Positions 2,596-6,802 of a stretch of DNA of 64,000 bases are shown here, in pieces. Positions within the stretch are counted from its first letter, which is position 1; the number at the start of each line of letters is the position of its first letter. The DNA is taken from assembly GCA_947444305.1 (NCBI GenBank), contig CANEZP010000017.1, forward strand, positions 1 through 64,000, read 5' to 3'. The notes beneath the pieces were generated by a model. It made no database searches. It was not told the origin of the DNA and saw nothing but the letters and a program-made list of their open reading frames with translations. The position numbers and the translations under genes are program-made. Source of the DNA: Pseudobdellovibrionaceae bacterium. Its GTDB lineage: Bacteria > Bdellovibrionota > Bdellovibrionia > Bdellovibrionales > UBA1609.

Positions 2596-4608
2596 TCAGT
2601 CCTCGCCCGTCAGATCTGCGAGGCAATCGCCTTGTTTGAGGTTGGCTAGTAATTCGTGATGATCGCCCGCTAAGTGCTGCTCGAACATTGCTAATAGGTC
2701 TTTGCGGGCGATGGTTGCGGTGTGTGAGAGATGCGCCGCCAAGGCTTCGAGCAAAGCCTTTTGCTCGCCTAGGACAGTCATGTTCTCGGCGTCGGCCGCG
2801 GCCAAAAGTTTTTCTTGATCGCAGGCGTCTTCGATTTGGAAATGCTCCTTCGTGTTGAAGGCCGTTGAACATTTGAGATCCGACGACTGCGAAATATGTG
2901 AGCCCATGCCCCAGTTCTGGACCATTCGTCCCGACAGTTCGGTCGCGTACTGAATATCGGGACCGACCGCCGAGGATACGTTGTCGGCGCCGTAAATTAT
3001 CGATTCGGCCGCACGCCCCGCGAGCAGCGTTCTTAACTGCGACTCGTAATCTTTTTGACCGGGCAACGCGGGCCAAGCAAAGCGTGCGAAGCCGGTGGCG
3101 AGGGAGCTATCGGCTTTCGAATAAATAGCGGTGGGCAAACGCCTCAGCGCGAACGCACCTGAGATGACGGTTCCCGCCACGCGGTAAGCGATGCGCCGCT
3201 GGCGCTCGGAATACTCCACCTTGAGACGGTCGCCGGCGCGAAGTTCAACGGGAGTTTGGTAGTTGAACACCTCGCCGCCCGCTCCGGTCAAACCGGTCGC
3301 TAAAATTTTGGGACCATCGATCACGTCGACGAAAATTTTTGCGACCGGCTGATCCTTGGTGATGGCTTGAACGAGCCATTCGGACAGCCTCGCGGCCACG
3401 ACTTCGCCTAAAGTCGATAGCACCGGTCGTGCGCCTTGTGATGGGATGACACCTTCGTCGTAAATCAAGTTTACGACCGCTTCGCTGAACTCAATTTTTG
3501 CGCCGACCTCTGCCTCGGCAAAATGGGCGAGGCGTTTCAGTTCATTGCGGATGAGGAGCCGGAAGCCTTCGCCCGAGAAGCTGGGGTAGATGACGTGGAT
3601 ATTACCTAAACGGGCTATCTGTTCTAAACGAAAACGTGCGGAGAGCGCACGTTTGATGTGCCCGAGTCGTACCGTCCGTGAGCTTTCGTAAAATTCGTCG
3701 GCCGACATCAGCGTAGGATCCATCTGCGAAACGTTACTGTAGGCTTCGTCCAAATTGCCGGAAACGAATATGAGTGAGCGCTTAAAATTTACCGGTTTTT
3801 CAAAAGGCATTTCGGCTTCGAAGCGAGGAAGAATCGAGGCGGCAAAAGCCGCGCGGTCTTTTTTCTTAACGTCGTTGCCTAATTTAAGTTGTAGTTCCTC
3901 ATACGTCATCTTTGGGAACAAGAAACGATGCACGTTCCGCATCTCGGCGTCACCTAGGTAACCGTTCGAAGACATGATGCCCGTATTCTCAACGATGGAT
4001 TTCAAACTTTGGAAAAGCTCTTTTTTGCCGATCGGGATCGGTACGATGCCGTCGCTGAGTAATTGGAAGATGGGGCGCAACCCAGGCCGGTCAATCTCGA
4101 AACCTTGTTCGTGAATTGTGCGGCCCGTGTGAAATTCGTCGAGATTCCAAACCATCGGCCGCCCGTCCATCGCCGAAAACCGGTAGACCGCCGCGAGCCC
4201 CGACGTGTTGCCGTCCCGCGAATTTCCCGAGACTTCGCCGATATCGACTTCGCCGTAAGCGTGTCTAAATTCGATCAGGTCAATCAAACGGCGGATCAAA
4301 CTTGTTTTGCCTACGCCGGTCATTCCCCAAAGGTTGATGATGAGCGGCCGTTCCTGCGCTTCCGGCAAGAGGTACCAGGTTGAAATCGTGTCGATCACGC
4401 GATCTATCTGAGGATCGATGCCGACAAATTCTTCTTTGAGGATCCGTCGGGCGTTTTGAAGTTTCACTTGCTTGGCCGCGAGTTCCGACGATCGGCCGGT
4501 CCGAGGCGAGAGCGGTTTCGGCACCCAATTCCAGATGGCGTGAGCCGGGAGATTTGTAAAAATCGTGGTCAGCACCATGGTCCAACAGATCAGACTTGCC
4601 TTGCGCAT
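2596..4608 (-). CDS. Exported Clp-like AAA+ ATPase fused to an inactive FtsH-type (M41) peptidase domain
   Basis: A 670-residue protein that begins with a Sec-type signal sequence (about residues 1-24, ending PAHA). Residues ~55-410 are a Clp/AAA_2-type module: Walker A GMTGVGKT (95-102), Walker B with Asp157-Glu158, sensor-1 Asn285 and sensor-2 GAR (392-394). Residues ~460-650 resemble the FtsH M41 domain: IAYRVAGT lines up with IAYHEAGH, so both zinc His and the catalytic Glu are replaced (Arg476, Val477, Thr480), while the third-ligand Asp551 (GPDIQYAT) and the GRAAESIIYG segment remain. Clp ATPase plus M41 is not a standard pairing. An ATP-driven unfoldase that binds but does not cut is a possible role, yet its apparent export is hard to square with ATP supply. 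A terminator follows the gene. Confidence 0.78.
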   Translation of the reverse strand: MRKASLICWTMVLTTIFTNLPAHAIWNWVPKPLSPRTGRSSELAAKQVKLQNARRILKEEFVGIDPQIDRVIDTISTWYLLPEAQERPLIINLWGMTGVGKTSLIRRLIDLIEFRHAYGEVDIGEVSGNSRDGNTSGLAAVYRFSAMDGRPMVWNLDEFHTGRTIHEQGFEIDRPGLRPIFQLLSDGIVPIPIGKKELFQSLKSIVENTGIMSSNGYLGDAEMRNVHRFLFPKMTYEELQLKLGNDVKKKDRAAFAASILPRFEAEMPFEKPVNFKRSLIFVSGNLDEAYSNVSQMDPTLMSADEFYESSRTVRLGHIKRALSARFRLEQIARLGNIHVIYPSFSGEGFRLLIRNELKRLAHFAEAEVGAKIEFSEAVVNLIYDEGVIPSQGARPVLSTLGEVVAARLSEWLVQAITKDQPVAKIFVDVIDGPKILATGLTGAGGEVFNYQTPVELRAGDRLKVEYSERQRRIAYRVAGTVISGAFALRRLPTAIYSKADSSLATGFARFAWPALPGQKDYESQLRTLLAGRAAESIIYGADNVSSAVGPDIQYATELSGRMVQNWGMGSHISQSSDLKCSTAFNTKEHFQIEDACDQEKLLAAADAENMTVLGEQKALLEALAAHLSHTATIARKDLLAMFEQHLAGDHHELLANLKQGDCLADLTGED

Positions 4609-4718
4609 TTTGCCTCGCTTTGGTTAAGCGTTAGCAATGCCCAAGGGGCACGGAGACTGTCGAGGGAATAGATTGCACTCGCGCGATACTAGCGCAGCGC
4701 GCGGCGCTCCCGCCGCGA

Positions 4719-5659: not shown

Positions 5660-6802
5660 TTATTGGCCGAGGGCTCCAAGAATTCGCATGGGCCACCGCT
5701 GCGGGTGTTGGTAAAGTTCTGTGGTCGCGGGGTCGCGGTACCATTTCATTTCAGGCACGTAGACCGTTTCTAAATCTTTGAGATAATCTTGCTTCCAAAT
5801 TTGATGTTTCGGATCGTGCGCTACGTACACGGTGAAACTGCGACCGCGATCAAAGCCGGCTTTAAAAAAACTTAACATCCGTTCGTAGGCCGCATCAGGT
5901 AGTGAGTTGAAATAGTAATAATGATCGGCCGCGGGCAGATCCTCGAATTCTAAATCACTTTGCCGAAAAACGATTCGGTCTAGGCCGAATCTTTGGGCCC
6001 AAGCTTGCGCAATCTTTAAGCGACCTTCGTTGATTTCGAGACCGGTGAAGCGAATCGAGGGGTGCATCGCGGCGATGAAAGCCCCGACCCGGCCGACGCC
6101 CGAACCGATATCAACGAGCGACTCACCGGGCACAAAAAACTTAGGTCGTAGAAGATGCGTAAGCCAGCCGTAGTTCGACCACAAAAATTCGGGCTCACCA
6201 CCCAACGCCATTTTTTGATCCGCTTGGGTTTCGGATGTGGGCACTTCACCGAAGATGGCCCGCTCGGACCGGGCGGCGTCCACCGAATTGATCCCGAGGA
6301 GCGGATCTAAAGCGTAGACCGAAATAAGGATGTTTTCGACGACGCGATCATCCAGCACGTACCGCCGGAACAAACGCGTCCGTTCGGCCCAAGGAATATC
6401 GCGTTCGACCAACTCTCGTCCGAGCAGGTCGATGAAATCGTAATCGTTGTGGAAAAAAAATAATTTCGTCGTGGGCATCTCATGGCCGAGTGCCGCGCTA
6501 ATCTCTTTCAACGATGCGGGATCACGATCGTAAGGCACGAAGAGGCGCCAGCCTTCCGCCAAAATGAACAGATGCTTAACGATTTCCTCGGTCGGGATAT
6601 GCGCGGCAAAATTCGCGTCTTGTTTTTGTTTCGCGGCGAGTGCGTCGCGGAGTTGTATCACCTTTACCGCGTTCCGCACGTGGGGCCTAAGAACGGACAA
6701 ATCAAAAAGACAATCTTGCGAGGCGAAGGACGACGCCGTAAAAAAGGTGACGATCACCAGGAGAACTCGTTGTGAAGTTGCCGTAAGTAATTTGCTTTTC
6801 AT
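5660..6802 (-). CDS. Class I SAM-dependent methyltransferase with a signal peptide
   Basis: A 380-residue protein starting with a Sec signal (MKSKLLTATSQRVLLVIVTF, ending SFAS, about residue 28). The second half holds a complete Rossmann methyltransferase site: motif I LVDIGSGVGRVGAFIAA, acidic motif II FTGLEIN, and DHYYYFNSLPD as motif IV. The arrangement recalls DOT1-like or general Methyltransf_25 enzymes. The N-terminal ~170 residues are unassigned. SAM is not expected outside the cytoplasm, so either the protein is delivered elsewhere or the signal acts as a membrane anchor. The target is unknown. Confidence 0.7.
   Translation of the reverse strand: MKSKLLTATSQRVLLVIVTFFTASSFASQDCLFDLSVLRPHVRNAVKVIQLRDALAAKQKQDANFAAHIPTEEIVKHLFILAEGWRLFVPYDRDPASLKEISAALGHEMPTTKLFFFHNDYDFIDLLGRELVERDIPWAERTRLFRRYVLDDRVVENILISVYALDPLLGINSVDAARSERAIFGEVPTSETQADQKMALGGEPEFLWSNYGWLTHLLRPKFFVPGESLVDIGSGVGRVGAFIAAMHPSIRFTGLEINEGRLKIAQAWAQRFGLDRIVFRQSDLEFEDLPAADHYYYFNSLPDAAYERMLSFFKAGFDRGRSFTVYVAHDPKHQIWKQDYLKDLETVYVPEMKWYRDPATTELYQHPQRWPMRILGALGQ

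Follow-up and report, generated by a model that had tools for sequence, protein, structure and literature searches.

A short, protease-dead Clp-M41 fusion with a predicted signal peptide in a Pseudobdellovibrionaceae genome

Judged from its sequence, the protein described here appears to be a short, protease-dead, signal-bearing member of the Clp-M41 fusions, eroded only in the catalytic half of its M41 domain. It is encoded in the window, a stretch of 64,000 nucleotides from a Pseudobdellovibrionaceae bacterium (contig CANEZP010000017.1). Its identity as an exported-type, protease-dead Clp-M41 fusion, taken alone, is in our view very probable.

Reading frame and AAA+ motor

The open reading frame is exact and begins with ATG, and it runs intact for 670 amino acids. 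The gene and the elements of its motor are as follows.

2596..4608, minus strand: whole gene, 670 amino acids, with predicted signal peptide, Clp-type AAA+ and dead M41 (ORF, Pfam, AlphaFold)
3649..4476, minus strand: AAA+ large subdomain, residues 45-320 (motif table, structure comparison)
4303..4326, minus strand: Walker A GMTGVGKT, residues 95-102 (motif table)
4132..4152, minus strand: Walker B VWNLDEF, residues 153-159 (motif table)
3784..4086, minus strand: helical insertion of low conservation, after Walker B and before sensor 1, about residues 175-275 (alignment, there taken as residues 180-280; AlphaFold)
3754..3756, minus strand: sensor-1 Asn285 (motif table)
3610..3612, minus strand: putative arginine finger Arg333 in EQIARLG (motif table)
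3349..3648, minus strand: AAA+ small (ClpB_D2-small) subdomain, residues 321-420 (PF10431 at residues 353-417)
3427..3429, minus strand: sensor-2 Arg394 of GAR (motif table)

A frameshifted or misread HEAGH was ruled out, since HExxH occurs in none of the gene-strand frames across the gene and codon-position GC is gene-like along its whole length. A phage or plasmid origin was also rejected: viral contigs gave no matches, and phages and plasmids yielded partial FtsH- or Clp-like matches only.

The first-pass annotation described the motor as a Clp-like AAA+ ATPase with intact Walker A and B motifs, sensors and GAR, and the motif table contained every one of these as well as the arginine finger. 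The small subdomain matched ClpB_D2-small (PF10431) at residues 353-417 with an E value of 1.4e-5. The best VIA-align match was mitochondrial CLPB/Skd3 (Z 24.4, rmsd 2.7, 302 residues), an alignment for residues 40-451; the VIA-align comparisons dealt mostly with residues 33-444 and are therefore of little value for M41. The best PDB matches of the model in Foldseek were Clp and FtsH chains, FtsHi motor complexes among them. On the basis of the ClpB_D2-small domain and the Clp D2 structures, the motor is Clp D2-like and not of the classical AAA type found in FtsH. It shares with the D2 module of Clp/Hsp100 proteins (ClpB, ClpC, Skd3) the AAA+ fold, the small subdomain and the GAR sensor 2, but it differs in having a helical insertion after Walker B, which is common to the short subfamily, and in carrying a fused M41 domain rather than pairing with ClpP.

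A further difference from these proteins concerns the GYVG pore loop, which is present in Clp and in some long fusions and is missing in every short member that has the corresponding region. It is therefore doubtful that the window protein threads substrates in the canonical way, and "remodeller" may not be the right word for it. The missing aromatic loop, together with the export signal, would suit a periplasmic scaffold that never meets ATP and whose AAA+ module serves solely as a ring-forming fold. Selection for a scaffold only would not, however, require the Walker A, Walker B, sensor and arginine finger residues that have been kept, and we regard this explanation as quite improbable.

The M41 domain and its relatives

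The C-terminal region of the protein contains three features of relevance to peptidase activity.

2689..3228, minus strand: M41 domain, peptidase-dead, residues 461-640 (Pfam, AlphaFold, hhalign)
3169..3183, minus strand: RVAGT in place of HEAGH, residues 476-480 (motif table)
2956..2958, minus strand: Asp551 at the third zinc-ligand position, kept (motif table)

The assignment of this region to a protease-dead M41 fold was borne out by three methods. Pfam placed Peptidase_M41 at residues 518-638 with an E value of 5.5e-13 and a score over the gathering cut-off. Comparison by hhalign of the C-terminus alone with 14 FtsH M41 domains gave a probability of 96% (E 1.6e-9) over a span that includes the HEAGH helix. 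AlphaFold, run on both modules with a 52-row alignment, gave a mean pLDDT of 83.7, with the M41 blocks mostly at 85-98; a 6-row alignment had given a pLDDT of 48, too poor for use. The lost motif had been read as YRVAGT. Loss of both zinc histidines and of the catalytic glutamate was upheld (H to R, E to V and H to T), but the motif proper is RVAGT and the tyrosine is its neighbour. Similarly, the third-ligand aspartate is retained as claimed, whereas the helix bearing RVAGT, one of those said to be kept, is strongly eroded. The protein thus resembles FtsH in carrying a C-terminal M41 domain on an AAA+ motor, in fold and in the third-ligand Asp, and it differs in having a Clp-type motor and RVAGT instead of the active HEAGH.

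Where the window protein has RVAGT, HExxH is present in all the rest of the 26 fusions and 13 FtsH proteins compared, and among these the window protein alone combines a full set of ATPase motifs with loss of only HEAGH. It is the only protease-dead Clp-M41 copy known. Chloroplast FtsHi proteins of the Ycf2-FtsHi import motor similarly keep Walker A and have an M41 domain without HExxH; the sequences at that position are TEVGV, REAAV and WAAGR, and the proteins serve an ATP-driven import motor (PMC11266112). They belong, however, to the chloroplast envelope and are AAA proteins of the FtsH type, whereas the motor of the window protein is Clp-type.

A search for the same fusion was run and yielded both short relatives and a long group. 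Among 148 genomes, five short homologues were found: one from the same genus and four from other parts of the order. With a profile of the short members, no more came up in either the 141 genomes searched for the order or the 369 searched for the phylum. The distribution of short fusions is sporadic, with 6 of the 141 genomes of the order having one. All five retain HEAGH, and the window protein is 31-33% identical to the short members over about 600 amino acids, collinear at full length with the insertion included. It groups with the short clade in both the M41 tree (support 0.966) and the AAA tree (support 100); support in the AAA tree falls to 41 where a single or double origin of the short and long fusions is at issue. 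One short relative (L020:8356-9192, minus strand, in genome G056) is a cut-down active fusion that begins in the AAA small domain and has a gap in the M41 helices, and is a decaying member of the family. A single scan of named genomes returned nothing but a Clp protein of the usual kind, encoded in an Anaerolineae MAG.

Divergence of the window protein, as measured by sequence identity, seems unusual mainly in the catalytic half of M41 and only modestly raised elsewhere. In that half (residues 461-517) it is 18-29% identical to active short relatives, which are 56-71% identical to one another when the close pair L004/L008 is left out. The corresponding values are 28-34% versus 38-43% for the AAA large subdomain, closest pair excluded, and 29-36% versus 34-38% for the C-terminal half of M41. 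The inter-domain linker (residues 421-460), which is variable in all short members, gave 6-18% for the window copy. Because the loss of identity is concentrated in residues 461-517, the constraint on the protease would have been lost and that on the motor and scaffold kept.

These values bear on whether the gene is decaying, that is, whether a once-active short Clp-M41 protease lost its catalytic site and is now drifting, with an N-terminus that resembles a signal by accident. Sporadic occurrence in the order, the cut-down relative in G056, the single dead copy and the absence of any gene neighbourhood common to the short members are all compatible with decay, and the last of these also led us to drop operon logic as a guide to the role of the gene. 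Drift would nevertheless strike all parts of the protein, whereas the loss is concentrated in the catalytic half, all ATPase motifs are retained, and the 670-codon frame is intact with gene-like codon-position GC. We therefore consider decay unlikely.

The fusion had been thought unusual. For this lineage that view is not supported, because many genomes across the phylum encode Clp-M41 fusions with intact HEAGH, mostly signal-bearing. Long members were detected as M41 and ClpB_D2-small in the same long open reading frame, with 58 loci examined in two rounds. They comprise about 850-1750 amino acids and are present in some 57 of 369 genomes; a long-group profile at 1e-40 hit 65 of the 369, about eight of which matched in the AAA part only. 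HExxH is kept in 58 of the 59 long members that reach the M41 region, the remaining one being cut off. A signal-like N-terminus was scored for 41 of 53 long members judged 5'-complete, a figure for which the best of several possible starts was taken for each member; when only the first start was used, on the first set, the count was 16 of 20. In some long members without a signal, the 5' end may be incomplete or wrongly read. We found no report of this Clp-M41 (Clp-FtsH) fusion protease family in open-licence papers, and by that measure it is previously unremarked. A single chain of a long fusion can contain as many as three Walker A motifs. Long fusions are of two kinds, in which the GYVG-like pore loop that precedes Walker B is either kept or replaced (for example L086:1154-5455 and L081:3520-7347, respectively).

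Signal peptide and topology

Two features at the 5' end of the gene concern export.

4537..4608, minus strand: predicted Sec-type signal peptide, residues 1-24, with predicted cleavage AHA/IW (signal score, hydrophobicity); not found in four complete short relatives
4613..4616, minus strand: GAGG, ribosome-binding-like, 5' of the ATG (read from sequence)

The predicted signal, MRKASLICWTMVLTTIFTNLPAHA followed by IWNW, had a home-made score of 4.04 and ends in an AHA cleavage motif, in keeping with the Sec signal proposed by the first-pass annotation. Given that a score of 4 was reached by 6 of 1196 internal Met starts, the score marks this N-terminus as unusual and is suggestive, not proof, of a signal peptide. 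The start appears to lie before the hydrophobic segment, as had been assumed: GAGG precedes the ATG, and no such site was seen before the later starts ATG11, GTG12, GTG29 and GTG48, the first two of which fall within the hydrophobic segment.

In a 19-residue membrane test, no stretch of the window protein reached threshold, the signal segment included, whereas all six FtsH controls showed two segments each, as expected for proteins whose two N-terminal membrane helices hold the motor in the cytoplasm. Apart from rare exceptions (L087, L090), long Clp-M41 members showed either no membrane segment or a single one near the N-terminus. The topology of the window protein, as predicted from these data, fits a cleavable signal and not an FtsH-like anchor. 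Anchoring with the motor facing the cytoplasm, which had been put forward earlier, is not favored because the signal is too weakly hydrophobic and no membrane segment follows it; the absence of that second segment also led us to reject a topology in which the motor is brought back to the cytoplasm as in FtsH.

A cytoplasmic location could also arise from a start after the hydrophobic segment or from an uncleaved anchor, in which case the protein might serve as an inactive partner of FtsH or Clp. ATP is present in the cytoplasm, GTG29 and GTG48 are in frame, and none of the four complete short relatives has a signal peptide by the home-made score. Such a regulator is difficult to reconcile with GAGG at the ATG and its apparent absence at the GTG codons, with the AHA motif, with a segment not hydrophobic enough to be an anchor, with the lack of a second one, and with the signals on most long relatives, and we consider it rather unlikely.

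Proposed mechanism and the producing organism

We propose that the window protein would be synthesized in the cytoplasm, pass the inner membrane by the Sec route and be cleaved after AHA. Its dead M41 domains would remain as the structural base of a ring, and the intact Clp-type ATPase may remodel client proteins instead of degrading them, by analogy with chloroplast FtsHi, in which the motor was kept and the protease lost. The bacterial periplasm is thought to be free of ATP, and the protein would therefore act where nucleotide exists outside the producer, most plausibly within the envelope of a prey or host cell. It might do so by itself, or it might join the tandem, active, signal-bearing Clp-M41 proteases of the same genome as a partner that does not cut. 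Taken as a whole, an exported ATP-dependent remodeller with a dead M41 ring as scaffold and nucleotide perhaps from another cell is a tentative proposal, possible but short of probable; the lack of a signal in the four complete short relatives and the existence of only one dead copy count against it.

ATP-driven AAA+ proteases are seen as machines of ATP-containing compartments. Export signals across the phylum, combined with intact ATPase and protease motifs in active members, therefore imply extracellular ATP or delivery into another cell, and for the window protein we prefer to infer delivery. A Clp-type AAA+ unfoldase operates outside the cell that produces it in the case of Plasmodium HSP101 of PTEX, at the parasite-host interface (PMC6550532). 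This comparison concerns how the protein works and claims no membership, given that HSP101 is eukaryotic and has two AAA rings and no M41; neither HSP101 nor FtsHi is a Clp-M41 fusion.

The producer is likely, but unproven, to be a Bdellovibrionota predator. TIGR02147 had seventeen matches in the genome of the window and none in 14 control genomes, which, given the known occurrence of that family, suggests Bdellovibrionota. Ruby and McCabe reportedly described an ATP transport system of Bdellovibrio in 1986 (as cited in PMC4834554). In B. bacteriovorus, Sec signals drive extracellular secretion (PMC12622784), and the access of Bdellovibrio to prey cytoplasmic contents is a named open question (PMC10225642). 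That a probably predatory lineage secretes Clp-M41 machines and a dead partner, powered by the ATP of the attacked cell, is conceivable but doubtful. If the producers are predators, the family would bear on how Bdellovibrio reaches those contents, and in the dead copy the motor would have outlived the protease, as in chloroplast import.

The tandem long fusions of this genome lie on contig 4 (L081:3520-7347 and L081:10689-14663) and have signal-like N-termini and intact HExxH. Between them, on the opposite strand, is a circularly permuted ATP-grasp gene (L081:7398-10595, minus strand; PF14403, E 7e-19) whose product also has a signal-like N-terminus. Several other genomes encode relatives of this product that bear signals, while the only canonical ATP-grasp with a high score (L166) is without one. 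Near the Clp-M41 gene of the window, positions 5660-6802 (minus strand) encode a protein that resembles SAM methyltransferases and has a strong signal peptide, and a paralogue that is 43% identical (L160:1489-2802, minus strand) has a signal peptide too; a search of 118 relatives at 1e-15 gave no further homologues. The Clp-M41 fusions are accompanied in this genome by other signal-bearing enzymes of ATP or SAM type, which is a pattern and not a test. Just downstream of the Clp-M41 gene, positions 1926-2498 of the window (minus strand) encode a small protein that starts with a signal-like segment and contains POTRA repeats but lacks a beta-barrel.
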